Shown in pieces: positions 19,804 to 58,777 of a stretch of DNA of 64,000 nt; the first letter of the stretch is position 1, and each line of letters starts with the position of its first letter. The stretch spans positions 4,402,001 through 4,466,000 of the forward strand of contig JAAHII010000001.1 in the NCBI GenBank assembly GCA_010671905.1. Direction: 5' to 3'. Below the pieces are notes generated by a model. That model was not told where the DNA came from. It worked only from the letters and a program-made list of their open reading frames with translations, and made no database searches. Made by a program: the position numbers and the translations under genes. Source of the stretch: Leptolyngbya sp. SIOISBB. Its GTDB lineage: Bacteria > Cyanobacteriota > Cyanobacteriia > Phormidesmidales > Phormidesmidaceae.

Positions 19804-20925
19804 CTATTTAGAACTACGACTTGCCTTCAGTAATAAATCTAAGGTGTCTTGACTAGCGTTCACCCATGAAAATCGTAAGAGATTTTCATGGCCTTTCTGA
19901 ACGATTTCCTCTGGAAAATTGAGGCTAATCTGAGATAGGGCCCTACAAATAGCTTCAACGCTATAGGGGTCCACAAGTATAGCTCCCTCACCCGCCACCT
20001 CAGGCATGGACGAAACGTCGGAGGTAATGACCGGACAGCCTAAACTTTGGGCCTCTAATATGGGTATGCCAAATCCTTCGTAGAGAGATGTAAAGATGAG
20101 TCCGCTGCTGTTTTTGAGCAGTACGGCCAAATCGCAATCGCTAACGCGCCCTGCACATAGAACATTTGGAATTGAGCGGGCAGTATTCAGTATTGCTTCT
20201 CCTTGTTTGCTCTTAGCATATCCTACGAGAAGCAAGTCTTTTTGCAGCGATTTGGGCGTCTTTGATAGGTACATTTCATAGGCCTGCAAGATTCTCCAAG
20301 GGTTTTTGATTTTTTTGAAGCAGCCAACACAAATAAAATATTCCCGAGAAACTAGTGCTAATTCTTCAAGTATCTTAGTTTGCTCATCACTAGTCTGAAG
20401 ATGGTCACCCGCTTCAGGAATAATGCTGATTTTTGTTGGATCAATTTTACAAAACCCAACTAAATCATTAGCAGTATTTTGAGAAACAGCAATGACACTA
20501 GCTGCTCGACGTGCAGTTATTGGAATCAGCGTTTTCCAGTAGAGACTTCGCATCCGACTGATTTCACTAGGAAACAGCCAAGCAAACTGATCGTGAACTG
20601 TAATCACCTGCTGAGTGTTGCCAAGTACACTACCAACATATCCAGGATTAAACAGCACATCGAAGTTTCTATAGATCGTAGCGGGCAAAAGTAGTTGCTC
20701 AACCCCGATTCTGCCTAGCAGACCAGCTGCGAACGGAAGCTCAGCCAGCTTAAAGTGGGATGTCTCACCTTCCCACCAGTCAGGTGGCCGTAAGCACAGC
20801 AACGTAAATTTGACTCCTTCTGCAGCTTCTCGGTACCAAGGCAAGATGATATTTGTTAGGTAAGTTTCGGTGCCAGCATTGACTCCCCACTTGATATGAA
20901 GCCCATTAATACCAATATGAACCAT
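19804..20925 (-). CDS. Family 4 glycosyltransferase
   Basis: 373-residue retaining GT-B enzyme. The C-terminal half has the GT4 signature: YFICVGCFKKIKNPWRILQAY near 200, NVLCAGRVSDCDLAVLLKNS near 260 and the ExxE element in TSLYEGFGIPILEAQSLGCPV near 287, followed by SDVSSMPEVAGEGAILVDPY. It transfers a sugar onto the growing lipid-linked oligosaccharide. The N-terminus (MVHIGINGLHIKWGVNAGTE) has the usual acceptor-domain pattern. 14 bases lie between it and the following SDR. Confidence 0.9.
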   Translation of the reverse strand: MVHIGINGLHIKWGVNAGTETYLTNIILPWYREAAEGVKFTLLCLRPPDWWEGETSHFKLAELPFAAGLLGRIGVEQLLLPATIYRNFDVLFNPGYVGSVLGNTQQVITVHDQFAWLFPSEISRMRSLYWKTLIPITARRAASVIAVSQNTANDLVGFCKIDPTKISIIPEAGDHLQTSDEQTKILEELALVSREYFICVGCFKKIKNPWRILQAYEMYLSKTPKSLQKDLLLVGYAKSKQGEAILNTARSIPNVLCAGRVSDCDLAVLLKNSSGLIFTSLYEGFGIPILEAQSLGCPVITSDVSSMPEVAGEGAILVDPYSVEAICRALSQISLNFPEEIVQKGHENLLRFSWVNASQDTLDLLLKASRSSK

Positions 20926-20998: not shown

Positions 20999-22334
20999 TT
21001 AATTACCTGCATGGCCGTTGACAATTGTTTTAAGTTCAAACTTTCGTGCAGAAGATAGTTGTCTTGTTTCAATTAAAAGGCGACAGTTCAAACCGGTTAA
21101 TAAAACTAGCAGTAAAGAGCCCTCCCAAGATTTAAAGCTCTCATGGGTTACGCACTGCAGGCATACTACTAGAAGAGTCGCTGGAATTTCAGCATGATTA
21201 TAAACCCAAGGGTGTTTGCGAAAATTCCAAATGTGCGAGGCGATACTAGCATATAAGAAGAAGACCGGCAACATGCCAACTAATCCAACTTCAAGAATAG
21301 CTTGAAGTAAGCTACTTTCTGTCTGGAAAATGTTGCGACCTTGAGACTCAGCTACAAGCGACAACATTCCTGGTCCATCACCAACGAAAATATATCGAGG
21401 ATTACTGAGAATTTGACTAAACGTCTGTGAGTAGATTTGAAACCTTACTTGGTTGCCAGCATCCTGAGAGGTTAAAGCATTAAGGATAAAATCAGCTCTA
21501 TCAACCAAGAAATCTAATGAAGAAGGAATTGTTAAAATTGCTATTAAAAGCATGATCCCCAAAAAAGACAATAGCTTGAACGAAAACAGCAATCCCTTTC
21601 TTAAGGAAATTGCTACTAGAAGAGCAAATAGCAAGTAAATAACTGGGCCACGAATGTTTACGGCCAGTAACGCGATTGATAAGATCAGGATAATTGAAAT
21701 GTAAACAAGCGTGTCTTTAAAGGCCCGACTGGAAGAGAAATAAGTTGAAAAACTCATCATAATCCCGACTGCGAGATATAGTCCTAAAAGCGCAATGCTG
21801 GTAGAAATTCCATAACGACGGACAGTATCGCCAACGGTCACCACCTTCATTAATATCTCCCCCGACCATGCTTCATAGAGGACGGGTAAAGCGTTAGTTA
21901 AAGAGACTGATATCAGCAAAAGACTAGTAAGTTTTTTTCCGATATAAAAAGGAGTGGAGACTAGCCAAGTAAATAGCCCTAACCACAAGCCATAGCTAAT
22001 AAATGAAAAAACTCCGGTTTGCCATCCCTCTGTTAAGGCTATGGCGATCGCATACAGCGATAAAACTCCTATGAACCAGAACGTAGGACCAATAACAGTC
22101 CATCGAAGCTTTAGTGTGATTAAGTTTGGCAGTTGAAATAGCCATATTAGTAGAGGTATGAGTACCCATACTCCTGACACTGCTGAAGGAATTATGCCTA
22201 TTCCAAAGCGCAAAAAAATTCTGTAAGGTTAAATAGATGGCGACAAGTGTTACAGTCAAAATAATTAGATTAGAGCTAGAGAATCGTAGAACTCCTCGAT
22301 TCAAACTTGCACGAGTTATTTGAATGCTTCTCAT
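20999..22334 (-). pseudogene. O-antigen polymerase-like protein (Wzy), frameshifted near the N-terminus
   Basis: A polytopic protein of about 444 residues when one T is removed from a T7 run (plus-strand A7, 22212-22218). The upstream frame gives MRSIQITRASLNRGVLRFSS and a first helix NLIILTVTLVAIYLTLQNF, which then joins LRFGIGIIPSAVSGVWVLI. The span is 1336 bp, one base over a multiple of three. About ten helices, a periplasmic loop with GNQVRFQIYSQTFSQILSNP and GDGPGMLS, and a late ESSLLQAILEVGLVGMLPV are typical of Wzy/O-antigen ligase proteins that polymerise lipid-linked repeats. If read literally, translation could restart at the ATG at 22213 but would lose helix 1. It may be functional with a sequencing error. 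Confidence 0.75.
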
Positions 22335-22357: not shown

Positions 22358-23488
22358 CTATATCAAAGCTTCCGTCAGATCATTAAACTGATGTGCGGCT
22401 CGCTGTTTTAAGGTTTCAATTGCTGGTTTTATAGGTTGGAAAAAAGCTGTTCTTGATTGCCAGAGAATCATGCTAGCTTTTTCGGTGAGCTCCTTTTTGT
22501 CAAGTTGTTCAATATAAAAATAGCTTGGACTAGTTAGCATTTCCATTAAGGCGCTCATTTTAGCACTACGAATCAAACAGATAAATGGCGTTTGATTTAC
22601 CGCAGCAAAAATAATAGGGTGCATTCTGGAACTAATAACGCAGTCGACGGCAACAATAGTGCGGCAAATTTCCTCTAAGCCAGTCTCAGTCGGAGAAAGC
22701 CAAGTAGCCATGTCGTGGGTAAACAGAATCCTTTCATTAAAGAGACGCATATCATAGCTATTCTGAGTATCGGAAACGGCATAAAATACCCTAATACCCG
22801 AAGCGATCCATTCTTTTACCGCCGAATTGATATTCTCGATGTAAGCAAGACTGTTGAATTTGTCTATGCAGGGCATGATTAATAAGGTTTTGGTATCGCC
22901 AGGTAAATGATACTTTTGCTTCAGTAGTTTTGCTTCGTGGTGGTGAGAATATGGCTCAAGTAAGAAAGCGGGGTCACTGCCCAACATTATCTCAGACGAT
23001 TGCAGGAGCTTTTGGAGTCTCTGTTGAGAACGCACGTCCCTAACACTGATGAAATCAGCCATAGGCAAAATCAACCGCATCAGAAATCGCCCTAGGCAAG
23101 AGAGATTAGCATCAACCCCAACGGCAAGTAGGGCGAATTTTTTGCCCGATAACTTAGCCAACAAACAAAGCTGAAGATTGGTCGCCAGATGGCCCCAAAT
23201 GAAATTAGGCAAACGAGGCTCGCTCAACTGCTCACCGCCCCCAACAACTATACAGTCATATTCTCGAATATGCGGCAAAATATTGACCCGTCCACTGCGC
23301 AAGTTGAGCCTCGGGAGGATTGGTATATCTGGAAATAGCGATCGCGCCCCTGCCACATCATTTACCGCAAAGGTTACAGAAATACCGCGGCACTGCAACT
23401 CATCCTTAATTGCCAGGGCGATCGCATCGTCTCCATAATTTAGCCCTCCATAGGGGCCCGAAACTAGCAGTTTTAGTTTATCTGGCAT
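22358..23488 (-). CDS. Polysaccharide pyruvyltransferase family protein
   Basis: 376 residues, GT-B-like PS_pyruv_trans fold. Visible motifs: GPYGGLNYGDDAIALAIKDEL at the N-terminus, CIVVGGGEQLSEP near 80, FALLAVGVDAN near 118, FISVRDVRSQQRL near 146 and the C-terminal CVISSRMHPIIFAAVNQTPF near 285. Family members (CsaB, WcaK) attach ketal pyruvate from phosphoenolpyruvate to a sugar, giving the glycan negative charge. Located 23 bases upstream of the Wzy start on the same strand. Confidence 0.85.
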   Translation of the reverse strand: MPDKLKLLVSGPYGGLNYGDDAIALAIKDELQCRGISVTFAVNDVAGARSLFPDIPILPRLNLRSGRVNILPHIREYDCIVVGGGEQLSEPRLPNFIWGHLATNLQLCLLAKLSGKKFALLAVGVDANLSCLGRFLMRLILPMADFISVRDVRSQQRLQKLLQSSEIMLGSDPAFLLEPYSHHHEAKLLKQKYHLPGDTKTLLIMPCIDKFNSLAYIENINSAVKEWIASGIRVFYAVSDTQNSYDMRLFNERILFTHDMATWLSPTETGLEEICRTIVAVDCVISSRMHPIIFAAVNQTPFICLIRSAKMSALMEMLTSPSYFYIEQLDKKELTEKASMILWQSRTAFFQPIKPAIETLKQRAAHQFNDLTEALI

Positions 23489-23556: not shown

Positions 23557-24873
23557 TTACTCAAGGATAGAATCTACTACATTTTCAACAGCCTCAGAGA
23601 GGGTCATTTCGGGCATGATCCATTGCCGTAAGTGCTCTGAGAACTGTTTGGCTTGAGCCATATGATCAGCTGGGCTACTAAGAAATTTGAATTGTTTTGT
23701 CAAATCGTTGTCATCATCGATCTTAAAGATGCAATCTTCATAACAGTACAAATGGCGGGCTAGATGAGGATATTTGGCAATTGTTGACAAATAAGGAAAT
23801 TTGCTAGGCGCATCAATATATAACTGCAGCACTGGCAGGCCGAAAGCCGCCGCGTCGATGGCAAATGTTGTTCCCAAATTAATAACCAAGTTGGCTTTTT
23901 CAAGATCTTTCAAACGAGCCTCATTATAGTTTTGCTCTAATGTATAATTGCCTCCACCTTCATTTTTTTGATAGGCTCCAATATCAACATGTCCATATTT
24001 ACGAAATTCATCTAGTTCGCCCATCCTACTATTTGGCTTTGGTTTAATTAAAAGCACGATCCCCAGACTCTGAGTAACATGGCATAGCTTGTGGATTAGT
24101 TGTTTTTCTTCTGAAAAAAAAGATAAGGAAGAACTGGAACCAAAAGTAGTAGGATACATATAAGTTACTTTAGACATTCCAGTATTATCAGATTCAATGA
24201 CTTTGGTCGTTTTGTGTTTATCTAAACTAATGACATAATCCAACTTGACTGGATAAGCTATCCTAATATCCTGGTCACCTTGGTAGTGATCCCAATCTTT
24301 TTTGAGTGCTTTGTTCCAAACAAAGACTTTCTGTGACTCATAACCAACGGGCGCTTTAGCAGGATGGTCCCAACTTTCCATGATTGTGTAAACCTGTATT
24401 CCTCTACTGCATAAAAGGAAGGATTCTACAGGTAAGCTAATGGCAACAATTTTTGAGGTTGGGAAAGGATTAGCAAGTAACGCGCCGACCCAGCAACTTA
24501 GATTGCGATTCACCTGGTTTGATGCCCATTTTGGTAATATTTTCTGGAAAAATCTTATTAGCTGGACAAGCCACTTTTTCTTGTTCTGTAAGCGCTGACT
24601 AAGCCAGTATTTATAGATTGAAGAATAATCTTCATTTACGAAGAGTATTCGCATCAAAGCATGCAACATCAAAGTAAATCTATTTTTATAGCTGATATCG
24701 CTAATCTTAATTAACTTGAAGTCTTTTGTTTTGTATAAGGATGTATACAGTGCATCAGGCACTATGAGATAAATGTTGATGTTTCTCTTTTGAAATTCTT
24801 CAATGTAAGGTAGTGCGGTGTGCAAACCAATTAAGGAAGAAACGAAGAAGCTGATTTTATTATTCTTAGACAC
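23557..24873 (-). CDS. GT-B-like surface carbohydrate protein of unknown specificity
   Basis: 438 residues with a GTG start. No family is certain. The N-terminus SFFVSSLIGLHTALPYIEEF looks like a GT-B Rossmann start. The C-terminal half has VLLIKPKPNSRM near 285 and ANLVINLGTTFAIDAAAFGLPVLQLY near 348, the pattern seen in CDP-glycerol, Kdo and capsule transferases where a small-residue loop binds the nucleotide. TYMYPTTFGSSSSL and MESWDHPAKAP are other notable stretches. Being next to NeuA and the hydroxyacid dehydrogenase, it is a candidate for the enzyme that uses the CMP-nonulosonate donor; that is inference. AT-rich and without HIP1 sites. Confidence 0.55.
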   Translation of the reverse strand: MSKNNKISFFVSSLIGLHTALPYIEEFQKRNINIYLIVPDALYTSLYKTKDFKLIKISDISYKNRFTLMLHALMRILFVNEDYSSIYKYWLSQRLQNKKKWLVQLIRFFQKILPKWASNQVNRNLSCWVGALLANPFPTSKIVAISLPVESFLLCSRGIQVYTIMESWDHPAKAPVGYESQKVFVWNKALKKDWDHYQGDQDIRIAYPVKLDYVISLDKHKTTKVIESDNTGMSKVTYMYPTTFGSSSSLSFFSEEKQLIHKLCHVTQSLGIVLLIKPKPNSRMGELDEFRKYGHVDIGAYQKNEGGGNYTLEQNYNEARLKDLEKANLVINLGTTFAIDAAAFGLPVLQLYIDAPSKFPYLSTIAKYPHLARHLYCYEDCIFKIDDDNDLTKQFKFLSSPADHMAQAKQFSEHLRQWIMPEMTLSEAVENVVDSILE

Positions 24874-24889
24874 TGAGGAAACCCGTCAT

Positions 24890-25834
24890 TTAAAGAGAAT
24901 CGCTGAGATACTCTTTTAAGGTTGAAACTACAGATAGCTCGGCTTGAGAAATTGCATCAACAGTCGCACCCCCAATATGGGGAGTTATTATGACGTTGTA
25001 GCCTTCTCTAGCACAGAGGACTAAAGGGTCAGAATTTATTTCTCCAAATTCTTCGCCTTCAATCACATCGACAGCGGCTCCCATGATTTTTCCGGAAATA
25101 ACTGCATCTGCTAAAGCTCGACTATCAACGATTCGGCCTCTAGAAGTGTTAACAAAAAAGGAGCCAGTCTTAAACTGAGATATGGTGCTTTGATCGATGA
25201 GGTGGTGATTTTCAGGGTCAGCAGTAACGTGGACAGATATGAAATCCGAAGTGTTTACCAATTCTTCCAACGAAACTGACAGGATTGGTGGATATATCTT
25301 AGATGTATCTATATCATAAGCTACCGGTTGCATGCCAAACGCGATGCCATAGTTGGCGACCATCCTACCTATTCGACCAAAGCCAACAATTCCTAGCTGT
25401 TTTCCTTGGAGTTGATGTCCCCAAAATTGGTTACGATTCCAGTTCCCGTTTAATACGTGAGATGTAGCTTGAGGTAAGGAACGTGCTAGCGCAAGTAATA
25501 AGCCCAACGTATGCTCAGCAGTTGAAGAAATACTTTTGATTTTTTCTGGACAATCTCTCAGACAAATAATCTTTACCCGATTACTTGCAGCTGCCTCTAA
25601 ATCGATGTGATCTAAACCAGTTGTGGCAGAAACAAGATACCGTAACTTTCTGGCAACCCGGAAGATATTATCGCCGATGTAAACACCTAAACGGACCATT
25701 AGGATATCACAGTCTAATAAATAATCTTCTAAAGCTCTATCTTCAAACGGGCCATAAGAAACTGTTCCTATTTCTGACAATATACTGCGAACTTCCTGGG
25801 ATATTGGTTGCGGTTCTGTGACAACTATTTTCAT
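24890..25834 (-). CDS. D-isomer specific 2-hydroxyacid dehydrogenase (SerA-like)
   Basis: 314 residues. The NAD-binding motif is LGIVGFGRIGRMVANYGIAF near 148. The catalytic set of this family is seen as Arg in FFVNTSRGRIVD near 228, Glu in AAVDVIEGEEFGE near 255 and His in VIITPHIGGAT near 282. Such enzymes reduce a 2-oxoacid to a D-2-hydroxyacid or the reverse. The start overlaps the NeuA stop by four bases, so it is translationally coupled to the CMP-sugar step. It could supply or remove a hydroxyacid used in the glycan (for example a lactyl-type substituent), but there is no direct evidence. It is not needed for known sialic acid synthesis. Confidence 0.82.
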   Translation of the reverse strand: MKIVVTEPQPISQEVRSILSEIGTVSYGPFEDRALEDYLLDCDILMVRLGVYIGDNIFRVARKLRYLVSATTGLDHIDLEAAASNRVKIICLRDCPEKIKSISSTAEHTLGLLLALARSLPQATSHVLNGNWNRNQFWGHQLQGKQLGIVGFGRIGRMVANYGIAFGMQPVAYDIDTSKIYPPILSVSLEELVNTSDFISVHVTADPENHHLIDQSTISQFKTGSFFVNTSRGRIVDSRALADAVISGKIMGAAVDVIEGEEFGEINSDPLVLCAREGYNVIITPHIGGATVDAISQAELSVVSTLKEYLSDSL

Positions 25835-26559
25835 TGATCTTGGCCCTGGTTTAAACCACTTTCTATGAGAGCCTTGGCAATCTTAAAGTCATCAGCAATG
25901 TCAATATTGATGGATCTCGCCCAAGGCATTTCATAAATTACTGGACTTGAACTCTTTAAATCTCCGGTGCGCAAAAAATACTCTGTTGCCACAATATAAA
26001 CAGCGCCATTGCGCTGATAAAGAACTTCATATTGTTGTCTTTGTATATCGTTATCCGTATCCTCTATATAGAGGGAACCAGTTAAATTGTCGGGTGATCC
26101 TAGACGATACATTACTTTTGGATGACGAATACCGTCGACTTTACAGGCACTAATAGTGGGCTGTTTCCCCATTGAGCAAAAGAGGCTAAAGGCGGCATCG
26201 ATATCTTCTGCAGTCCGAAGTGGAGTTGTAGGCTGTGCAAGTAGGATAGATCTTGGAAGGTTGCCCTTATGAATTTTCCATGCCTGAAGTGCATGAAAAA
26301 CAGCATCAGATGTTTTTGACTGATCCTGCGAAAGTTCAGCAGGGCGTTTAACTAACAGTATTCCCTGGTGACTTCGGTAATATTGAAGAATGTCAGGATC
26401 ATCTGTTGTAACAATAATCCCTGAAACCGATTTTGCGATGCTTAAAGCATCCACTGTATAGTCAATCAGAGGCTTACCTCCAACTAGCATCTTGTTTTTC
26501 CTAGGAACTCCTTTAGATCCTGCTCGGGCGGGAACAATTGCCAACAACTCATTATTCAT
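25831..26559 (-). CDS. neuA: CMP-nonulosonate (acylneuraminate) cytidylyltransferase
   Basis: 242 residues. It activates a nonulosonic acid with CTP to the CMP-sugar. The N-terminal IVPARAGSKGVPRKNKMLVGGKPLIDYTVDAL is the classic cytidylyltransferase P-loop region, followed by IIVTTDDPDILQYYRSHQ, LLAQPTTPLRTAEDIDAAF near 107, NGAVYIV near 187 and the metal-binding Asp region SINIDIADDFKIAKAL near 217. The domain is of normal length, without an added esterase. It is 12 bases downstream of a methyltransferase and overlaps the hydroxyacid dehydrogenase. Whether the sugar is Neu5Ac-, legionaminic- or pseudaminic-like cannot be told from this enzyme alone. Confidence 0.9.
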   Translation of the reverse strand: MNNELLAIVPARAGSKGVPRKNKMLVGGKPLIDYTVDALSIAKSVSGIIVTTDDPDILQYYRSHQGILLVKRPAELSQDQSKTSDAVFHALQAWKIHKGNLPRSILLAQPTTPLRTAEDIDAAFSLFCSMGKQPTISACKVDGIRHPKVMYRLGSPDNLTGSLYIEDTDNDIQRQQYEVLYQRNGAVYIVATEYFLRTGDLKSSSPVIYEMPWARSINIDIADDFKIAKALIESGLNQGQDQ

Positions 26560-26571
26560 TTTCGTATTGCT

Positions 26572-27453
26572 TTAAGTCCCGTACGAATCTAAATATGTAT
26601 TGTTTTTCCGGAAGGTAAGCAGAAAAGCTTGTCCTATTTCTTCCTGGCAAATCCAAGGATTCTGCTTGAGAAGCGAGTATCTAACATATAGAGATAGATC
26701 AAATATTTTGGTTAGTGCAAGTTCTAGAGGTGGAGGCATCAAAGAAAATGGAAAATCTGGTGAGTGAGAAATCATGGGCAAAGGATACATGCCAAAAGTT
26801 TCTACATTGTTGACTGGTAAATCTTTGATGGCTTCGAGATACCGAGGTGAACCAAAGTCCGAGCGATAAATAGGCTGTTTGGCTCTAATTTTCTCTTCAG
26901 AATTGGCTAATTTTGAAAGTTCACTAAGAATTCTATTGAGCCAATGAAAGTTCTGCTGAATATTATCGGTTCTTTCCGGCACAATATAACCAAAAAAACG
27001 ACCGCCAGGCTTTAGAATCCGAACTTGTTCTCTAATCGGCTTGTTAATATCTTCGAAGTGTTCTAGCAGTCCAATACTAACCACGATATCGAATGTTTCA
27101 TCTGCAATTGCCAGTTCATTCGCGTCACCATGTACGAAAACTGCCTCGTGACCATTATTGGTAAAAATATGTTTCGCTGTTTCTAAAACACTTTGCGAAG
27201 AATCTAGCAAAGTACAGGAATATCCGTGCTCTGCAAAATGACTTGAAATACTGCCTCGACCGCATCCTACTTCAAGACATTTTCCAGACAGTATGCCGTC
27301 TTTTTTCAAAAACTCAGAAAAAACTTTGTAATGATTGTGAAATGCAAGTTGAATTTGATTTTGGGGCTGCCCTTTTATCCAATGATTATATTGGGCTTCT
27401 TTACGAGTTTGCCAGTTTTGATCAAATTCGACGACGCTACCTTTTTTAGACAT
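26572..27453 (-). CDS. Class I SAM-dependent methyltransferase
   Basis: 293 residues. Motif I is CLEVGCGRGSISSHFAEHGY near 59, then CTLLDSSQSVLETAKHIF, VFVHGDANELAIADETFDIVVSIGLLEHFED near 105-135 and ILKPGGRFFGYIVPER near 145. It methylates a small molecule or a sugar, probably the nonulosonic acid or another residue of the same glycan. Between the MT-like gene (21 bases upstream) and neuA (12 bases downstream), it sits inside the NeuB-NeuC-NeuA operon. AT-rich. Confidence 0.85.
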   Translation of the reverse strand: MSKKGSVVEFDQNWQTRKEAQYNHWIKGQPQNQIQLAFHNHYKVFSEFLKKDGILSGKCLEVGCGRGSISSHFAEHGYSCTLLDSSQSVLETAKHIFTNNGHEAVFVHGDANELAIADETFDIVVSIGLLEHFEDINKPIREQVRILKPGGRFFGYIVPERTDNIQQNFHWLNRILSELSKLANSEEKIRAKQPIYRSDFGSPRYLEAIKDLPVNNVETFGMYPLPMISHSPDFPFSLMPPPLELALTKIFDLSLYVRYSLLKQNPWICQEEIGQAFLLTFRKNNTYLDSYGT

Positions 27454-27473
27454 ATCAGTTCTCTCGGGTCAAT

Positions 27474-28260
27474 TTACCAACTCTTGCCCAAGCAATAGAC
27501 AATCGTAGCTTGATTTAATTTACCTAGTGGCTTTTCTTGCAGTTCACAAACAGTGACGTCACTTGCCATGTTGTAATTTATCTGCCAATTACGATAGAAA
27601 TGTGCTTGGAGGAAGCGAGCGTTGGCAGTGCGACCATCAATGACGATCAAGGTACCCGGTATGAGTTGGGGCTCTAAGCGCAACAAATCGCCAGAAGTAA
27701 CTACGCGATCGCGGTTTTGCCACGAGGCTCCACCTATATTTCCGACCACTGTAGCAGGATCGGGACCATCTAAATAAATGAAATCTGGAACAACATCCGG
27801 CAGTTCTTCGTAAAAATGGCAGGCCCGCTCCTGAAAGGTTCCTACTTTTGCCAATGAGTAATGTAGCGTAATCAGAGTTGCTAAATGTTTCGGCAGCATC
27901 GATTTGGTCTGCTCAATCCACTTGTGCGAAGTGTCTACGGAATGTAGTTGAAAAGGCGTTGAATTTCTAATTTTCGGCTTTTCATCCAGTGCTTCCCAAT
28001 CCAACTTGTTTTTCATCAGGGCATCGGCCATCACAATTGTCGAGTAACCGAGGCCAAACTCTAGGATAGTGAATGCCTTTCTCATCCGAATCGTTTGATG
28101 TAGTCGAGCCAGATCGCGATAGTTTGGCGGAATTCGATCACCCGACAGATGAGCCGGATCATCGATTAACGGGATCACATCTTCTGACTTTTAAGTAAGA
28201 GAACGCTGCTTCCTGATTTGAATCTTGGGCAAATAAATCGGCGACTTCTTTCGGATCCAT
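27474..28260 (-). pseudogene. Class I methyltransferase-like protein, frameshifted near the N-terminus
   Basis: The real start appears to be the ATG at 28260, because AGGAGGAG, the strongest ribosome-binding site in the locus, stands 6 to 8 bases upstream. It encodes MDPKEVADLFAQDSNQEAAF and then breaks at a four-base A run (plus-strand T4, 28189-28192). Removing one A continues into SEDVIPLIDDPAHLSGDRIP and the rest of the 262-residue protein. FTILEFGLGYSTIVMADAL resembles a Rossmann SAM or nucleotide-binding loop, and DFIYLDGPDPATVVGNIGG is a second conserved part. The span is 787 bp, one base over a multiple of three. Function unknown; possibly sugar methylation. It lies between NeuC and a methyltransferase. 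Confidence 0.7.
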
Positions 28261-28325
28261 AAACTCACTCCTCCTAGATAACAATCCCCGACGTTGTTGT
28301 CATAACATGGCGTGTGCTAATCTCG

Positions 28326-29489
28326 CTAGGCCTCAACTGTGGGGTAATGGAGCGATTTTGAGAACGTCAAGGGTGCGGTGGCTAAGACGGCGGCGATTTG
28401 CTCACCAGCATTGCCACTGCCATAGAGAGTTGACCTCTCTGCCCGACCTACAAAATGTTCTACAATCGCCCGCTTGATTTCGGTGCGGTCGTAGCTAACA
28501 TGTCTAACGTTAGGACCACATTCGCGATTGGCCTGACGATTGCCGATATTAATCGCTGGAACCCCCAAATACGAACATTCTCTAATGGCTACGCTAGAGT
28601 TACCGACTATGCCTTCACTGGCGTATAACAACCGTAGGAAATCGGCAGGCTCCATGTTTTTAATGAAGTGAATATTGGGGGGATTGTAGTTTTCTCGGAA
28701 GGAGCGAATACCTTTGGACAAGGCGTCACTACCGGCATCTGGGTTGGGCCAAAACCACAATACAGGACGCCCCCAGTCGGCCACAGCGTGTAGCGTTTCT
28801 CGCACCTGTTTCATTGCATCAGCGAACTCCGTGGTGACCGGATGCTGCATCACAATGATGTAGCCCCTTTTTAGGTTGGGATGAGCACCCACACCGCCAT
28901 ATTTGTCATAAATGTCAAAGTCAAGCGCCGGAGCCCGAACTACCCCTTCAGCTAAATCGGTGGACGGACAACCCGTACAAAAGACCCGCTCCGTAGCTTC
29001 ACCCATGCGCACAATCCAATCTGCAGCGCGTTGGGTGGCAGGGAAGTGTAAATCGGCGAGTTTGGTAATAGCGTGGCGGACTTTTTCGTCAATATTGCCG
29101 GAGACTTCCCCCCCTTGGGCATGGGCTAGGGGAATATTTTGATACGCAGCAGCGATCGCTGCCGATAAGACTTCGTAGCGATCAGCCATTACCAGAACGA
29201 CATCAGGCTTGAGGCGATCGAACGCGCCCGCGAATTCCCCTACACCTACGCCTGCTGACTTGGCCGTTGTCAGCAGCGTTTCGGCTTCGAGCAACATATA
29301 GATGCGCTCGTTGATCACAAAACCGTCTTTCTCAACAATCTTTTCAACTTTGCCGTATCGCTCCAGTACTGCGGAAGCCGCACACACCACCTGCAATTCG
29401 ACGTCCGGTCGCTGCTGCAACGCCGTCAGAATCGGTTTGATCTTGGTGTAACTCGTGCGGGCCGTTATCACCACACAAACTTTACGCAT
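28326..29489 (-). CDS. neuC: UDP-N-acetylglucosamine 2-epimerase, hydrolysing (NeuC/LegG-like)
   Basis: 387 residues. It epimerises C2 of a UDP-HexNAc and hydrolyses it to free ManNAc or, in the LegG type, to 2,4-diacetamido-trideoxymannose, the precursor for NeuB. Motifs: VCVVITARTSYTKIKPIL at the N-terminus, DVVLVMADRYEVLSAAIAA near 95, IPLAHAQGGEVSGNIDEKVRHAITKLADLHF near 118 and VGNSSVAIRECSYLGVPAINIGNRQANRE near 300. The overall pattern is GT-B-like. It overlaps the end of neuB by 8 bp. NeuC versus LegG cannot be resolved from motifs. Confidence 0.88.
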   Translation of the reverse strand: MRKVCVVITARTSYTKIKPILTALQQRPDVELQVVCAASAVLERYGKVEKIVEKDGFVINERIYMLLEAETLLTTAKSAGVGVGEFAGAFDRLKPDVVLVMADRYEVLSAAIAAAYQNIPLAHAQGGEVSGNIDEKVRHAITKLADLHFPATQRAADWIVRMGEATERVFCTGCPSTDLAEGVVRAPALDFDIYDKYGGVGAHPNLKRGYIIVMQHPVTTEFADAMKQVRETLHAVADWGRPVLWFWPNPDAGSDALSKGIRSFRENYNPPNIHFIKNMEPADFLRLLYASEGIVGNSSVAIRECSYLGVPAINIGNRQANRECGPNVRHVSYDRTEIKRAIVEHFVGRAERSTLYGSGNAGEQIAAVLATAPLTFSKSLHYPTVEA

Positions 29490-30537
29490 TCTCGACTCCC
29501 ATATCTTCCCAAGTTAACAATCGGTCAGCAGAGACATCTCGCTGTAATTTTTGACCGATGAGGCGATCTAGCTCTACATAGGGAATCCCCGTGCCAGGCT
29601 TCTTGGCCATCAGCATTGATGGGGTCAAGACCTCTCCTGCCTTAAGCGCCCGGGTTGGGGCGACGCTTTTGGTAAACAATGCTCTCATGGCGTTTAGATG
29701 CTGAGCCATCCCGTCCTTATCAACGGGATGAGCATCCATAGCTGCAAATTCGGTTCTGGCGGCTGTGACCAGCTTCAGATCGTCAATCGTAAGAGATGCT
29801 GAGACATCAGGCCCAAACATGCGCTTGTCAAAAGTCAGGTGCACCTCAATCAGATCAATACTACGGGCTAGGGCAGCGAGGCTAGCAAACGGCTGCCCCG
29901 AATGATCCGATAGACCAATCGGGCATTCATAGCGCTCACGCATTTGTTCGATCACATTCAATCCCACTGACTCTGACGGTGTGGGGTACATGCTAGTACA
30001 CTGAAACAGCCCAAACGGATGCTGCCGCTGCTGAAAATAGTGGGTGATCGCATCAATTTCTGACCAGGTGCTCATGCCTGTGCTGACTAAAATCGGCTTG
30101 CCGGTCTGCACCATGGCGGCTGACAAATCCGTTGACCGAAACTCGCCTGAGCCAACTTTCCAAGCGGGTATGCCAATGCGGTCTAATAACTCAACTGCCT
30201 GAAGTGAAAACGCCGAGCTGAGAAAAACGAGATTTTTGTCGGCAGCATGGCGAGCCAGTCCTTCCCACTGCTCAGCGGTAAACTCCATGCGTTTCCAGTA
30301 GGCATAGCGGGTATCGTCCTGGCCGCTAAACTTTACCCGAAAGGGCTCGTCATAGGTGGATTCCTGATCGGCAATGTGAGTTTGGAATTTAACCGCATCG
30401 GCCTTAGCTTCAGCCGCTGCATCGATGTAAGCATGGGCCAGCCCAAGGGAACCATCATGGTTTTGAGCAATTTCAGCAATGATGAATGCTGGTTGTTGTG
30501 AGCCAATGAGATGGGAGCCAATAGATAAATCAGACAT
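29482..30537 (-). CDS. neuB: N-acylneuraminate (nonulosonic acid) synthase
   Basis: 351 residues. It condenses a C6 amino-sugar with phosphoenolpyruvate to form a nine-carbon nonulosonic acid. The TIM-barrel domain shows FIIAEIAQNHDGSLGLAHAYIDAA, ADAVKFQTH, IPAWKVGSGE near 120, LVSTGMSTWSEI, LFQCTSMYPTP near 175 and CPIGLSDHSG near 204. The C-terminal SAF (antifreeze-like) domain begins about residue 290 (APTRALKAGEVLTPSMLMAKKPGTGIPY). Length and domain order are normal. It is 45 bases downstream of the UDP-HexNAc dehydrogenase and coupled to neuC by an 8-bp overlap. Confidence 0.92.
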   Translation of the reverse strand: MSDLSIGSHLIGSQQPAFIIAEIAQNHDGSLGLAHAYIDAAAEAKADAVKFQTHIADQESTYDEPFRVKFSGQDDTRYAYWKRMEFTAEQWEGLARHAADKNLVFLSSAFSLQAVELLDRIGIPAWKVGSGEFRSTDLSAAMVQTGKPILVSTGMSTWSEIDAITHYFQQRQHPFGLFQCTSMYPTPSESVGLNVIEQMRERYECPIGLSDHSGQPFASLAALARSIDLIEVHLTFDKRMFGPDVSASLTIDDLKLVTAARTEFAAMDAHPVDKDGMAQHLNAMRALFTKSVAPTRALKAGEVLTPSMLMAKKPGTGIPYVELDRLIGQKLQRDVSADRLLTWEDMGVENA

Positions 30538-30582: not shown

Positions 30583-31848
30583 TTATGCCGGATAGTATCG
30601 TGTCGATAAGTGCCGTAAAAAGCCTCTGGTGTCGACAATAGGTGCATCAAGTTGACTAAAGTCGTAGTCTTTGAAATCTTGATGGGCTGTTACCAATAGG
30701 TACAGATCGTAGCCAGGGGCAAAAGGTACGGACTGACGCCCTGCGAACTGACTATGTTCTCGCGTTTTGGGAATCACTGAAATGTAAGGATCATGAAAAT
30801 CAACGATAGCGCCACGCTGCTCCAGTAGTTTCATCAGATGATAAGCCGGAGATTCTCTTTCGTCTTCAATGTTGGGCTTATAGGCCAGCCCTAATAGCAG
30901 TACGCGAGTCCCTTTTACAGCTTTACCTTCTTGATTGAGAGCGTGAATCACCTGCTCAACCACGTAATTCGGCATGGCTCGGTTGATTTCGCCCGACAAC
31001 TCAATAAATCGTGTATCCTGACCAAATTCGCGAGCTTTCCAAGTCAAATAAAATGGGTCAATGGGAATGCAATGTCCGCCAAGTCCAGGACCGGGGTAGA
31101 ACGGCATAAACCCAAAGGGTTTAGTTTTAGCCGCATCAATCACCTCCCAAATGTCAATATCCATCGCAGCGTAGATAATTTTGAGTTCATTGACGAGTGC
31201 AATGTTGACGGACCGAAAAATGTTTTCAGTTAACTTACTGGCTTCTGCTGCCCGGCAGGAGGACAGCGTCACGACCGTATCGACCACTCGACTGTAAAGT
31301 GCTTCGGCCTTGGCCAGACAAGTAGGGGTATAGCCACCAACAATTTTAGGAACAATCTTGACCCGGCTATTGGGGTTACCGGGATCTTCCCGCTCTGGTG
31401 AGTAGGCTAGGTAAAAATCTCGACCAGCCTTTAAACCAGAATCCGCCTCTAAAATTTTACGGAGTTCGCCTTCGGTAGTACCGGGGTAAGTGGTTGACTC
31501 TAGTACGACTAAAGTCTCTGGGCGCAGATACTTCGCAATGGTTTTGGCGGTGTTTAACACGTAAGAAATGTCAGGCTCACGATGCTTATTTAAAGGCGTA
31601 GGCACGCAAATGATGATGGCATCACATAGACTCAACTGATCAAACTGATCGCTGGGTATGAAATAGCCCGACTCTAAAGCTTTGATAATCTGATCGGAGT
31701 TAATATGTTTGAAATAAGACAGGCCACCTTCAAGCTTGTCAATTTTAAAGCGATCAACGTCTAAACCAATTACTTTGTTGTTCCCCTCTGCAAAGGCTAA
31801 GGCTAGTGGTAGGCCAACATAGCCTAGTCCAACGATACCGATAGTCAC
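30583..31848 (-). CDS. UDP-N-acetylhexosamine 6-dehydrogenase (WbpA/WecC-like)
   Basis: 421 residues. It oxidises C6 of a UDP-HexNAc to the uronic acid with NAD+. The N-terminus IGIVGLGYVGLPLALAFAEG is the Rossmann motif, and LAYSPEREDPGN near 150 is typical of WbpA-type UDP-GlcNAc dehydrogenases and not of UGD. The catalytic Cys lies in GPGLGGHCIPIDPFYL near 257, and LLLGLAYKPNIEDERESPA near 317 marks the C-terminal domain. It likely supplies a HexNAc uronate to this glycan. The operon runs on into neuB after 45 bases. Confidence 0.9.
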   Translation of the reverse strand: MTIGIVGLGYVGLPLALAFAEGNNKVIGLDVDRFKIDKLEGGLSYFKHINSDQIIKALESGYFIPSDQFDQLSLCDAIIICVPTPLNKHREPDISYVLNTAKTIAKYLRPETLVVLESTTYPGTTEGELRKILEADSGLKAGRDFYLAYSPEREDPGNPNSRVKIVPKIVGGYTPTCLAKAEALYSRVVDTVVTLSSCRAAEASKLTENIFRSVNIALVNELKIIYAAMDIDIWEVIDAAKTKPFGFMPFYPGPGLGGHCIPIDPFYLTWKAREFGQDTRFIELSGEINRAMPNYVVEQVIHALNQEGKAVKGTRVLLLGLAYKPNIEDERESPAYHLMKLLEQRGAIVDFHDPYISVIPKTREHSQFAGRQSVPFAPGYDLYLLVTAHQDFKDYDFSQLDAPIVDTRGFLRHLSTRYYPA

Positions 31849-31994: not shown

Positions 31995-33818
31995 TTAGCT
32001 TTTTCCCACCATCGCTCGAAAGCTAGCACTACTTTTTAGTAAGTCGGTATAGCGTCCTTGAGCAACGACGCGACCTTGTGACAGTTCAAAAATGTGATCG
32101 CACCGCTCCACCGTTGTGAGCCGGTGAGCGATCAAAATCATGGTTACCTGGCGTCTCAGACCAAGAATAGCAGCCATCACGTCCCTTTCTGTGGCGTTGT
32201 CCAAGGCACTGGTAGCCTCATCAAAAACGATTACAGATGCATGGTGATATAGGGCTCGGGCAATTCCGATGCGTTGTCGCTGCCCACCTGATAGCCGCAC
32301 GCCTCGCTCCCCCACGTAAGTATCGTAGCCCGCTGGTAAGCTCCGAATAAAGTCATCAATTTTGGCTAGCCCGGCAGCGCGCTCAAGGCTGATGGTGTCA
32401 ATTTTATTTGGGGATACACCAAAGGCAATATTTTCAGCAATGGTTGCGTCGGTTAGGTAGATGTTTTGAGGCACGTGGGCAATGCTTTGCTGCCACTGGC
32501 GTAGGTGCTCTCCTACTAAAGGCTGTTCATCAATCGAGATTTCTCCCTGCTGGGGCGATAACAATCCTAAGATGATGTCCGCAATCGTGCTTTTACCACT
32601 CCCTGTACTGCCGACAAACCCCACGATAGTTTGTGCCTTGATCGCAATATCTAAATCTTTGATCACCCAAGGCTCTGTGTCAGAGTAGCGAAACCAAATA
32701 TGCTTTAGCCGCAGTTCACGACGCAGTTCTAGTCCAGTTTTTGAGGTTATGCTTTGCAACGGTCTCACTGGCCGCTCTAGCCCAATCAAAATTCGCTTCA
32801 GCGAGGCTCGTGCTCCCTGAATCTTGACGAGCCCAGCAAAGGTTTGCTGCAGAATGGGTAGGAGTCGGTTAGCACCTAAGGCCAAACTACCCAGCACAGG
32901 TAACAACTGGCTGAACTCACCCTGATTGCCCGAGAACAAGGCAAAGCCAGCCACCGTAATCATAAGTAGGGCCTCGATAATATAGCGGGGCGTTTGAGCG
33001 ATCGCAGTATTGGAAGCCAAAGCATGGCGATAGGGAGAATCCGCTTGCTCATAAAGGGACTGAAAAAAATCTTGATTGCCCGCTAATAAAACATCGCGAA
33101 TTCCCCCTAAGCCTTCTTGTACCGTCTTAATTTGTTGCTGACTCGTCTGCACAACAATATGGCTATTGCGCTGTAGCAACTTGCGTCGTAATCGATAGAG
33201 AATACTGTAGGCCAGCCCCAGAGTAATAACGGTGATGACGGTAATCTGGCCATTGATAAAAAACAATATTCCAATTAGAAAGCAAGCAATAAAGGTGTTC
33301 GAAACAATTCCCAAAAGTGGAATCACAATATGGCTAGTTAGTGTTCTGGTATCGTCTATCGTTGACTGGATGAGGTCGCTACTATTATGCCTGAGATGAA
33401 ACTGATAGGGCTGTAAAAGTGTCCGTTCATAAACTTGACAGCTCATATCACTTGCAATACTAGCTGCCAGATGGGTTTGCACCTGAATCGTTAGAATACG
33501 CAGGCTATTTGCAAGAATGATTGCGGCGATAAATAGCAACGATACTTTGGTGACTAATGCTTCGGTTGAATTAATATTCAAAGTTACAAATAGGGGTGCA
33601 AGTTGTGGCTCTGATAGCAGACCCTTAGCATCATTCAGAGCCCCTAAAAATGGCAGGGTCAAGCCTAGGCTGATCACCTCGCTGGTTGAGGTTAGCGTCA
33701 AAAGCAAGAACAACAATCCAAGTTGTTGCCGCCGGTATTGCGTCAAATGACTCAGCAGGCTCCAGATGTCTCGTAACAGCGAGGGTGGCGAGAAAAGTTT
33801 GTTCTTCGCAAAGGGCAT
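31995..33818 (-). CDS. ABC transporter, fused permease and ATPase (PglK/MsbA-like flippase)
   Basis: 607 residues. The N-terminal half has about six membrane helices (from LLFLLLTLTSTSEVISLGLT). The ATPase carries Walker A GFVGSTGSGKSTIADIIL near 398, signature GERGVRLSGGQRQRIGIARAL near 504, Walker B ASVIVFDEATSALDNAT near 530 and H-loop ILIAHRLTTVERC near 560. In the polysaccharide locus it most likely flips the lipid-linked oligosaccharide across the inner membrane, as PglK does. Flipping and polymerisation together would then use this ABC protein with the Wzy-like protein, since no Wzx is seen. It is the first gene of the minus-strand locus. Confidence 0.88.
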   Translation of the reverse strand: MPFAKNKLFSPPSLLRDIWSLLSHLTQYRRQQLGLLFLLLTLTSTSEVISLGLTLPFLGALNDAKGLLSEPQLAPLFVTLNINSTEALVTKVSLLFIAAIILANSLRILTIQVQTHLAASIASDMSCQVYERTLLQPYQFHLRHNSSDLIQSTIDDTRTLTSHIVIPLLGIVSNTFIACFLIGILFFINGQITVITVITLGLAYSILYRLRRKLLQRNSHIVVQTSQQQIKTVQEGLGGIRDVLLAGNQDFFQSLYEQADSPYRHALASNTAIAQTPRYIIEALLMITVAGFALFSGNQGEFSQLLPVLGSLALGANRLLPILQQTFAGLVKIQGARASLKRILIGLERPVRPLQSITSKTGLELRRELRLKHIWFRYSDTEPWVIKDLDIAIKAQTIVGFVGSTGSGKSTIADIILGLLSPQQGEISIDEQPLVGEHLRQWQQSIAHVPQNIYLTDATIAENIAFGVSPNKIDTISLERAAGLAKIDDFIRSLPAGYDTYVGERGVRLSGGQRQRIGIARALYHHASVIVFDEATSALDNATERDVMAAILGLRRQVTMILIAHRLTTVERCDHIFELSQGRVVAQGRYTDLLKSSASFRAMVGKS

Positions 33819-34015: not shown

Positions 34016-35194
34016 ACTCAGAACCCAGGGTTGATTCATTGTAGGAGACGAAAAATCCTCTCAACCTGGTTGGCGAGCTCTCGTAGAGCGGAAGTAACCG
34101 ACTTAAACCCATTCAGTCGGAGCAAATTGATAGTAATGGAACGAAACAGAGAGGCATTGAGCAAAGCGTTCGGGTTTCGGCCATACGTTTCATCTTCATG
34201 AAGGACGACATCTTTCGGCCAATGCAATTGATTTTCAATGCTCCAATGCCCTCGCACCATATTGTTCCAGAGTCTTGCCGTGGTCGCTAGAGAGCTGAGA
34301 TAGTAGGCTCGATGAATGGAACATTTGTCTGGCGTACAGCGCCGTCGTTCAACACAGAGGATGGTTTTCGTCCCCTGCCAGCGTTGAGGGTCAATCCCTT
34401 GGGCAGAATACACGCTGACCCGCCGCTGTTCTTGACGGCCATGGTGGCATTCGAAGGGGGTTGAAGCGGTTTGTCGCGGTTGGCGATAACGAATGATCGT
34501 CTCGATCTGACGATACAGCTTCCCCTGATTCTCTTTAACCGCCACCACATAGTCATTGCCCCCCTCAACAATGAGCGACAGTGTTTTTTTTTTGCGCGTG
34601 AAGCGCATCCAGGCTGAAAGCCACTCCGCTCAAGTGGAGTTTCTCTAACAGATACTGCACAACCTTCAACTCGCTATTGTCGGTGGGGGTCAGCGCGGCT
34701 AAATCGACGGTGATCCCTTGGGCTTGAGCAAAGACACTGACGAGTCCGACAAAGCGCGTTTTGCCGTCATCGTCGGTGATGGGTTGTCGAATCCGCTTCC
34801 CGTCAATGGCATATACATCCTCGTCTACCGTGAGATACTGGCGCATCCATTGAACAAAGGCGTCGCTGAGCGCGGCAAAGTCAAGCCCGATATGGGCTCG
34901 CCGGAAGGTCGAAAAGGACGGTACCGCGTCAAGGTCAATCTGCAATAAGTCAGCTACCTCGGAACCGTAGCGTTGCGCAAACTCCTCTAGGGGGCGATTC
35001 CCTCGATAACCCGCTAAATTTCCCATCACAATGAACACCAAAATGATCCACAGCGGATGGCGTTTCCCACGAGCATGACGATAGTCAGGGACGGTCTGTA
35101 GGGCTTCTATAAGGTTCATCGCAACATCAACGATACGGGTGCCTTACAGCTTAATTTTTATCTCATCACATTGAATCAGCCCTGACTCAGAACC
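34016..35194. mobile_element. ISAs1-type insertion sequence with 10-bp target duplication
   Basis: The element itself runs 34026-35184 (1159 bp). Its ends are related inverted repeats: CAGGGTTGATTCATTGT inward from 34026 and CAGGGCTGATTCAATGT inward from 35184. On both sides stands ACTCAGAACC (34016-34025 and 35185-35194), a perfect 10-bp target duplication, so insertion is recent and no rearrangement has followed. It landed in the non-coding interval between the ABC transporter and the Wzz-like gene; joining the flanks restores a continuous intergenic sequence. The coordinates given include the duplication. Confidence 0.92.
34036..35119 (-). pseudogene. ISAs1 family transposase, split at an A10 run
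   Basis: DDE transposase in two frames. The N-terminal 184 codons (MNLIEALQTVPDYRHARGKR through DALHAQKK) are interrupted at a run of ten A (plus-strand T10, 34584-34593). The rest (TLSLIVEGGNDYVVAVKENQ through the C-terminal HWSIENQLHWPKDVVLHEDE) follows in the next frame. With nine A the protein reads QKKTLSLIVEGG continuously, as in other ISAs1 transposases. The span of 1084 bp is one base over a multiple of three. A run this long can be bridged by transcriptional slippage, so the element may still be active; alternatively it is an indel or a sequencing error. Confidence 0.85.
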
Positions 35195-36424: not shown

Positions 36425-37021
36425 TAATGAAGTGAGGGGAGAGACAATTGGAGCATTCAATCAACTTGTGAGGTAGAAGGGCTAAATTCAGTATGTAGTT
36501 CTCTATTTATGTCTGGACCCAGCTTACTGGGTGAATTTCAATATTTCTAATAGAGTTGAAAGATTTTTGAAGAGCAGGTTCGTGAGTTGCCTTGTGATAA
36601 AGCTGAGCCATATGCGCCTCGATTTTGTCCCATGGCCCTATTAGCTCCAAAAGTATTGGACGGAGAATTGTTAGCCTTGTATCTTCACCTAAGGTATCAA
36701 CTTGCAAGGATAATAATTAAGTCATCTGGCACACTCTCATCAAAGAGAACCGGCACGGAGAATCGATGCCAATCTGAAAAGTGATTGTGCTCTTTAAAAG
36801 CGGCTCTCTATCTTCTAAGATTTCATTGACGGATTAGCTTTTAAGCCACTTTACACATTGATTTATCATGCTTAGTAGCTCGGGAAGATGTTTTCATATC
36901 TTTATCTAAGAGTAAAAGTGGCCGGAGCCGTTGCGTTCTTGAAGAACGCTCTCAATCTCACAATTCCTGTTCAGTTATTACCTCAAAAGGGAATTGCTAC
37001 ATCAGGCTTTATTAATTGCTT
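36425..37021. other. Intergenic region before the WbpM-like gene
   Basis: About 600 AT-rich bases with no supported gene. A 65-codon frame at 36587-36784 and a 66-codon frame on the other strand have no recognisable content. A promoter for the WbpM-like gene is expected here but I cannot place it with confidence. Confidence 0.4.
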
Positions 37022-38968: not shown

Positions 38969-38998
38969 CTCGAGTGAAGATTTTATAGCAAAAATTTG

Positions 38999-58770: not shown

Positions 58771-58777
58771 TAAATCA

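Follow-up and report, generated by a model that had tools for sequence, protein, structure and literature searches.

Which sugar does a cyanobacterium make when it carries the genes for a nonulosonic acid (NulO) synthase, a sugar epimerase and a cytidine monophosphate (CMP)-sugar synthetase? The question is raised by a 64,000-nucleotide stretch of the genome of Leptolyngbya sp. SIOISBB (assembly GCA_010671905.1, contig JAAHII010000001.1, positions 4,402,001 to 4,466,000 of the forward strand; this whole stretch is hereafter called the window, and all positions refer to it), in which a first-pass annotation made from the sequence alone had described a CMP-nonulosonic-acid operon, NeuB–NeuC–NeuA, with embedded methyltransferase-like genes. 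Coordinates, minus strand and gene families all agree with that description, with one of the two methyltransferases (MT2) staying below its curated cut-off. The proposed extent of 25831–30537 stands from NeuB to NeuA, but the run continues with two further genes, HADH and GTx, to 23557. We consider that the run probably encodes a route to a methylated NulO of the neuraminic (Neu) type, and not of the legionaminic (Leg) or pseudaminic (Pse) type, within a surface-polysaccharide locus.

Gene content of the run

On the minus strand, from 30537 to 23557, the order is NeuB–NeuC–MT2–MT1–NeuA–HADH–GTx, where GTx is a protein of glycosyltransferase-B (GT-B) fold. Intergenic spacing is short or overlapping throughout (8 bp overlap between NeuB and NeuC, 4 bp between HADH and NeuA), except for 148 bp ahead of MT2.

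29482..30537, minus strand: NeuB, NulO synthase of clade X (defined below) with SAF domain (Pfam, trees)
29599..29601, minus strand: Lys313 codon of NeuB, at the position of Arg314 in Neisseria meningitidis NeuB (alignment)
28326..29489, minus strand: NeuC, hydrolysing uridine diphosphate (UDP)-N-acetylglucosamine (UDP-GlcNAc) 2-epimerase, GNE type (TIGR03568, tree)
28159..28260, minus strand: short open reading frame (ORF) behind a strong ribosome site, probably the start of MT2 put out of frame by a frame break
27474..28178, minus strand: MT2, putative S-adenosylmethionine (SAM)-dependent methyltransferase, Methyltransf_24-like (below Pfam cut-off; homologues in loci L033 and L040)
26572..27453, minus strand: MT1, class I SAM-dependent methyltransferase (Pfam)
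25831..26559, minus strand: NeuA, CMP-nonulosonic acid synthetase (Pfam, NCBIfam, best PDB match 6ifd)
24890..25834, minus strand: HADH, D-2-hydroxyacid dehydrogenase, SerA-like (family matches, linkage)
23557..24873, minus strand: GTx, GT-B-fold protein, candidate CMP-NulO transferase (linked-family profile, predicted fold)

In Pfam, NeuB matches the NeuB (E 4e-59) and SAF (E 4e-8) families, NeuC matches Epimerase_2 (E 3e-64), NeuA CTP_transf_3 (E 5e-15) and MT1 Methyltransf_11 (E 4e-23); MT2 reaches 23.4 of 26.3 bits on Methyltransf_24. Among the NCBIfam equivalogs, NeuC clears TIGR03568 with 350.7 bits (cut-off 235.9) and is the sole gene in the host genome to do so, in a family that also takes in NeuC homologues of Leg context. 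NeuB remains under the cut-offs for N-acetylneuraminate synthase (279.2 of 399.7 bits) and PseI (199 of 340 bits), and a second NeuB-family match in the host genome scores 35.6 bits. The best PDB match of NeuA, 6ifd, is a CMP-N-acetylneuraminate synthetase; because NeuA is also below the cut-off of the PseF equivalog (88 of 205.7 bits), it does not fix the specific sugar. The host had been taken for a cyanobacterium, as confirmed by nine matches in its genome to the photosystem II reaction-centre family, for which only Synechococcus elongatus matched among 14 control genomes.

A NeuB lineage with lysine at the Arg314 site

To place NeuB, we drew on 386 cyanobacterial genomes surveyed for NeuB homologues and on a scan of named genomes, from which the best 80 of at least 571 NeuB relatives were used. 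Clade X comprises 38 loci, namely 33 from the named-genome scan (33–61% identity), four cyanobacterial loci and one Rhizobium plasmid locus, and set Y the remaining 48 (47 from the named-genome scan and one cyanobacterial). Clade X extends over Pseudomonadota, Acidobacteriota, Chloroflexota, Bacteroidota, Nitrospirota, Actinomycetota, Spirochaetota, Lentisphaerota and others. A quick NeuB tree was built from 100 rows after exclusion of two short ones (clade X locus L064 is among them) and of 12 of 15 cyanobacterial rows judged to be SpsE-like or to lack SAF; in it, a branch with a Shimodaira–Hasegawa-like approximate likelihood-ratio (SH-aLRT) support of 99 has the 38 clade X rows on one side. 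A second, careful tree, with 25 clade X rows among its 49, gave a support of 100/99, and the approximately unbiased test rejected a grouping of clade X with the N. meningitidis enzyme (p-AU 0.0015). E. coli K1 NeuB and PseI, which with N. meningitidis NeuB are the only three reference enzymes in these trees, also fall outside, so that the window's NeuB is not grouped with the assayed N-acetylneuraminic acid (Neu5Ac) synthases used as references. On this phylogenetic evidence, clade X NeuB is a distinct lineage scattered across many phyla and separate from every reference enzyme included. A NeuB/NeuC tree was the check proposed with the first-pass annotation; both proteins sit in a well-supported clade outside N. 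meningitidis NeuB, K1 NeuB and NeuC, and PseI.

NulOs had been called uncommon in described cyanobacterial polysaccharides. At the gene level, NeuB homologues are not uncommon in cyanobacteria, occurring in 165 of the 386 genomes, but clade X is rare there: close relatives outside the host genome number three at 47–50% identity and one at 38%. NeuB homologues are present in 17 of the 63 genomes from the host's own family, and none of these exceeds 36% identity apart from that of the host itself. As a separate observation, the NeuB of L022 (from G107, a cyanobacterial genome of 1.7 Mb) falls with the N. meningitidis enzyme in the quick tree (SH-aLRT 100), apart from the other cyanobacterial NeuBs included.

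The window's NeuB is 33% identical to the N. meningitidis enzyme and 31% to that of K1. Equivalents of Glu25, Lys53, Gln55, Lys129, Tyr186, His215, His236 and Asp247 of N. meningitidis NeuB are kept (8 sites), whereas the Asn74, Thr110, Asn184 and Phe288 sites hold other residues. The most telling exchange concerns Arg314, the sole SAF-domain active-site residue of N. meningitidis NeuB, which contacts N-acetylmannosamine (ManNAc) and is believed to assist in positioning the N-acetyl group of that sugar (PMC6795526). The window's NeuB has Lys313 at this position, and its best PDB match, 4ipj, likewise has Lys. All 38 clade X rows carry Lys at the site, as against Arg in all 56 other NeuB rows; in the six SpsE-like rows, which had been kept out of this count, the site holds Ser (2), Gly (2) or a gap (2). 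Further alignment sites specific to clade X were seen besides this Lys. Another 24 NeuB rows, one of them repeating L050, were added from Chloroflexota and from the host's own family. Three new close relatives (43–54% identity) all have Lys, and the other 20 have Arg (9), Gly (5) or Ser (6) and never Lys; two of the three Lys rows fall in clade X in the careful tree, the third being in none of the trees. Since the R314K variant of N. meningitidis NeuB keeps catalytic activity and R314A does not, according to PMC6795526, which cites Joseph et al. 2013, Lys is compatible with synthesis. A literature search that reached few subscription papers returned no description of a natural Lys clade at this site.

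Kinship of NeuC with GNE

Clade X NeuCs likewise form one clade, supported at 98 by a quick tree (65 rows) and at 100/97 by a careful one (37 rows). Human GNE, represented by a single sequence whose branch is long (1.71), is their sister (99 and 100/98, respectively); the NeuC of E. coli K1 and 5zlr, a diacetylbacillosamine epimerase, lie elsewhere in the NeuC trees. The best PDB match of the window's NeuC is GNE (221.7 bits, compared with 173 for the diacetylbacillosamine epimerase), and the epimerase domain of animal GNE is the closest of three references at 34% identity. In GNE this domain is fused to a ManNAc kinase, feeding a phosphorylated route; the window's NeuC, in contrast, is an epimerase only. 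The sister relation to human GNE favours UDP-GlcNAc as the substrate of clade X NeuC and ManNAc as its product, and ManNAc is the likely intermediate of the pathway as far as sequence kinship can tell. Within this sample, clade X NeuC is the bacterial sister group of the epimerase that starts animal sialic acid synthesis, and thus bears on the origin of that gene, for which transfer of an epimerase from Alveolata into deuterostomes has been proposed (PMC5811610).

A dehydrogenase and a GT-B protein as recurring partners

Of the clade X loci, 8/38 have HADH at most 6 kb from NeuB, compared with 1/48 set Y loci (p 0.009, with differing flank lengths and kinship uncorrected), and 9/38 have it anywhere in the stretch, compared with 1/48, at E 1e-8; L052 has a weaker match at the end of its stretch, below this threshold. 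The gene is co-oriented with NeuA at a distance of 0–134 bp in L043, L050, L054, L058, L059 and L068 and abuts NeuA in L061 too, making seven of the 38 clade X loci in all. In all four genomes tested (L050, L058, L059, L061), the genome-wide best match to the window's HADH is the NulO-adjacent gene, and the genomes of L042 and L062, which lack a local HADH, have weaker matches elsewhere (60 and 123 bits). L062 belongs to Dokdonia pacifica and carries NeuB–NeuC–NeuA; L059, which has HADH as well as a methyltransferase, belongs to Portibacter marinus. The best PDB matches and the family of HADH are those of SerA-type D-3-phosphoglycerate dehydrogenase, but the seven cassette HADHs measure 297–354 aa, whereas most SerA matches from cyanobacteria have open frames near 530 aa, and the cassette proteins stand apart in the tree. 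Ten NulO-linked HADHs, the window's included, separate from 32 background rows at 100/99, in a tree whose background is nearly all cyanobacterial SerA and in which long branches meet. Arg, Glu and His, which we take to be the catalytic triad of the family, are kept in all seven aligned cassette HADHs. The same literature search yielded no 2-hydroxyacid dehydrogenase in a NeuB/NeuA cassette among the sources it reached, few of them subscription papers, the nearest precedent being a NeuB of Leptospira santarosai that contains a phosphoglycerate dehydrogenase domain (PMC4758666).

GTx has no Pfam match. It matches the profile of a GT-B-like family (cluster 10) at 9e-18 and the gene after NeuA in L033 at 1e-34; the family is found anywhere in the stretch in 10/38 clade X and 3/48 set Y loci (p 0.014). 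Its model, of middling mean predicted local distance difference test score (pLDDT; 63.9), has a GT-B fold, for which Foldseek returned many GT-B enzymes, MurG first and the polysialyltransferase 5wcn at rank 11. Seven of the 12 rows in the GTx alignment match Glyphos_transf, the CDP-glycerol phosphotransferase family with its cytidine-linked donor, and GTx itself does not. As modelled, the fold is GT-B in general, leaving families other than those listed possible.

Of the new loci, L194 from Chloroflexota, which was not used to define the pattern, has the order NeuB–NeuC–methyltransferase–NeuA–HADH–GT-B, i.e. that of the window with one methyltransferase instead of two. L195 has a methyltransferase and no HADH, and L196 ends within NeuC.

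Methyltransferases and integrity of the run

Methyltransferase-family matches lie between NeuC and NeuA in L033, L040, L042, L194 and L195 (METHYLTRANSFERASES); L059 has a methyltransferase gene after NeuA, and L076 of set Y also has one between NeuC and NeuA. Within 6 kb, a methyltransferase is found in 16/40 clade X and 8/48 other loci, and the corresponding p of 0.018 is optimistic because clade X loci supplied all five proteins that seeded the profile. The methyltransferases are of different types: two clade X loci, L033 and L040, have MT2 homologues at about 45% identity, and MT1 is nearest, of those compared, to the L059 gene (29%).

The L033 and L040 homologues extend further at the N-terminus than MT2 itself, and an ATG at 28260, preceded by a Shine–Dalgarno-like AGGAGG, opens a 33-codon ORF in a different frame; on these grounds the MT2 frame looks broken, by mutation or by an assembly indel. 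The MT2 model is too poor to assign a fold (mean pLDDT 48.5), and the structure search gave no match at E 0.001 or better. Guanine-plus-cytosine (GC) content differs within the run, with 38–42% (31–38% at third codon positions) in MT1, NeuA, HADH and GTx (23557–27453) compared with 51–53% in NeuB and NeuC, so that the cassette may have two sources.

Proposed pathway

We propose that NeuC would convert UDP-GlcNAc to ManNAc and UDP, that NeuB would join phosphoenolpyruvate (PEP) with ManNAc, or with ManNAc bearing an altered N-acyl group, to give a Neu-type acid, and that NeuA would turn this acid into the CMP sugar. These three steps are the best supported, drawing on family and clade evidence. 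The later steps are suggested by recurring neighbourhood: MT1 and MT2 might O-methylate the sugar or its acyl group, HADH might make or use a 2-hydroxy or 2-keto acid tied to that acyl or sugar modification, and GTx might move the CMP sugar onto a polysaccharide made by the neighbouring Wzy-like and glycosyltransferase genes. The Neu5Ac pathway of E. coli K1 and N. meningitidis likewise has these three activities in a single run that lacks an aminotransferase; the window differs from it by the addition of HADH and methyltransferases, by the clades of its NeuB and NeuC, and by Lys in place of Arg314.

Several observations weigh against a methylated Neu-type product. We know of no assay of any clade X enzyme, and the use of ManNAc is a matter of kinship; NeuC kinship does not fix the product either, since K1 NeuC, a Neu5Ac enzyme, is not grouped with GNE. 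The Lys could mean a different NeuB substrate. HADH has no match in 29/38 clade X stretches, methyltransferase enrichment is weak at 4 kb (13/40 clade X compared with 7/48 loci, p 0.07), and MT2 may be broken. With VIA-align, the top rows for GTx are UDP-GlcNAc 2-epimerases (Z about 18), followed by TarL (16.6) and MurG (16.4); because its best structural matches by Z are thus GT-B-fold epimerases and not transferases, we speak of a candidate transferase. Lastly, the clade X locus L067 (SAR202 cluster bacterium) has an epimerase/dehydratase match upstream and a LegC at 470.5 bits (cut-off 420) about 1.6 kb upstream of NeuB, so that some clade X loci may serve another sugar, and in L039, the nearest NeuB relative, a DegT aminotransferase that passes no cut-off lies just upstream.

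Alternative products

As Lys is fixed at the residue believed to help position the N-acetyl group, the question of a product with an N-acyl variant arises. In the alternative that survives best, although we regard it as unlikely, the NulO would carry a non-acetyl N-acyl group, e.g. a hydroxyacyl or O-methylated hydroxyacyl, with HADH supplying the acid, the methyltransferases capping it and Lys suiting the acyl. NulOs carrying di-O-methylglyceric acid are known from Campylobacter flagellin. Such a product would give a role to HADH, a dedicated and recurring partner, to the methyltransferases that recur between NeuC and NeuA, and to an exchange at a residue that contacts ManNAc (PMC6795526). 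It sits less well with the run itself, in which no acyltransferase or acyl-activating gene was recognised, and with incomplete co-occurrence, Lys being present in 38/38 clade X rows but HADH in 9/38 stretches.

A wider version of this idea, possible though somewhat speculative, is that clade X constitutes a further NulO pathway beside Neu, Leg and Pse, in which a Lys-type synthase would act on a non-acetyl (hydroxy- or methoxy-acyl) ManNAc derivative built by HADH and methyltransferases to yield an undescribed methylated sialic acid; this pathway would have spread across phyla and into phages, with an epimerase that is the nearest bacterial kin of animal GNE. NeuB trees serve to predict which NulO a microbe makes (PMC7371886). 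A widespread clade with a fixed Lys at a residue studied by mutagenesis, and often with its own dehydrogenase, amounts to a predicted sugar that lacks an assignment.

The first-pass annotation had left open a sialic- or legionaminic-like sugar. Whereas the NulO part is upheld, the legionaminic part is not, as neither LegB nor LegC is found above cut-off in the host genome. The Leg pathway (LegB, LegC, LegH, LegG, LegI) has NeuB, NeuC and NeuA homologues in common with the window. For a legionaminic-type acid, NeuC and NeuB would have to receive UDP-diacetylbacillosamine made by the 37 kb dehydratase together with an aminotransferase from another place, which we judge quite improbable. The WbpM/PglF-like gene (37016–38968) and the DegT gene (57565–58770) invoked for this purpose are indeed present in the window, but score 28 bits against LegB and 142 bits against LegC. 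Genome-wide, the best LegB score is 129.9 of 475 bits (TIGR04180), not near the cut-off, and the best LegC score is 383.7 of 420 bits (TIGR04181), from a gene at 2.2 Mb that comes closer but adjoins non-ribosomal peptide synthetase (NRPS) genes (L203, positions 2199001–2213000 of contig C1 of the host genome). Around clade X, the genes of this route are depleted: DegT lies within 6 kb of NeuB in 3/38 clade X compared with 23/48 set Y loci (p 5e-5), and a NeuD-type acetyltransferase cluster is found in 0/38 compared with 22/48, this label deriving from six of its 22 members, for which TIGR03570 was the best match in all six and above cut-off in five. Finally, the window's NeuC groups with GNE and not with the UDP-diacetylbacillosamine epimerase 5zlr or most NeuCs of Leg context, although the LegC of L067 suggests that some clade X enzymes may serve the Leg route. 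As side observations, the DegT aminotransferase adjoins an exosortase EpsH gene in what is apparently a separate locus (57565–59680), and the NRPS condensation domain beside the LegC-like gene is split across two overlapping ORFs.

A pseudaminic product is not indicated: PseI, of the same family as the window's NeuB and 30% identical to it, falls outside clade X and has Arg at the Lys313 site, and the PseI equivalog is not reached; PseB, PseC and PseG were not searched for in the host genome.

That the locus is a decaying or silent imported mosaic that makes no NulO is highly improbable, for although the MT2 frame break, the split neighbours (transposase halves at 34036–35119 and overlapping frames at 38996–40940) and the GC drop would fit it, NeuB, NeuC, NeuA, HADH and GTx are open over their full length, NeuB and HADH keep their active-site residues, and the frame breaks may be assembly indels because the NRPS condensation domain at 2.2 Mb is likewise split.

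Phage loci

A scan of viral contigs (IMG/VR) gave five loci, L198–L202, whose rows are not in the trees. In L198, L199 and L202, the order NeuB–NeuC–methyltransferase–NeuA stands just before a P22-type portal gene, and the NeuBs (306, 300 and 267 aa) have no match to SAF, the domain of the Arg314/Lys site. The NeuB of L200 has SAF, with Lys at the Arg314 position, and NeuC comes immediately after it, both behind a P22-type portal gene; a NeuA piece lies at the opposite end, and no methyltransferase was recognised. L201 has Arg at the Arg314 site. Clade-X-like NeuB–NeuC genes thus occur on phage contigs with P22-type portal genes in L198, L199, L202 and L200. The phage methyltransferases are 38–46% identical to those of L042 and L052, a type that these two loci have in common with the phages.

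Surroundings of the run

The run is flanked by the following genes:

30583..31848, minus strand: nucleotide-sugar 6-dehydrogenase, UDP-ManNAc/UDP-GlcNAc type (NCBIfam)
31995..33818, minus strand: ABC transporter with fused membrane and ATPase domains
22358..23488, minus strand: polysaccharide pyruvyl transferase family protein (Pfam)
20999..22213, minus strand: Wzy/O-antigen-ligase-like protein
19804..20925, minus strand: group 1 glycosyltransferase (Pfam)

Given these neighbours (nucleotide-sugar dehydrogenase, ABC transporter, pyruvyl transferase, Wzy-like protein and glycosyltransferases), a surface-polysaccharide locus is likely. The nucleotide-sugar dehydrogenase was also considered as a pathway enzyme making a uronic ManNAc derivative and was discarded, as such a gene lies within 6 kb of NeuB in 4/38 clade X and 5/48 other loci.

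Upstream of the polysaccharide run, a DDE transposase, presumably ISAs1-like, occupies two frames at 34036–35119 (DDE_Tnp_1_assoc and DDE_Tnp_1). The overlapping ORFs in different frames at 38996–40940 look like one frame-broken membrane-protein gene.

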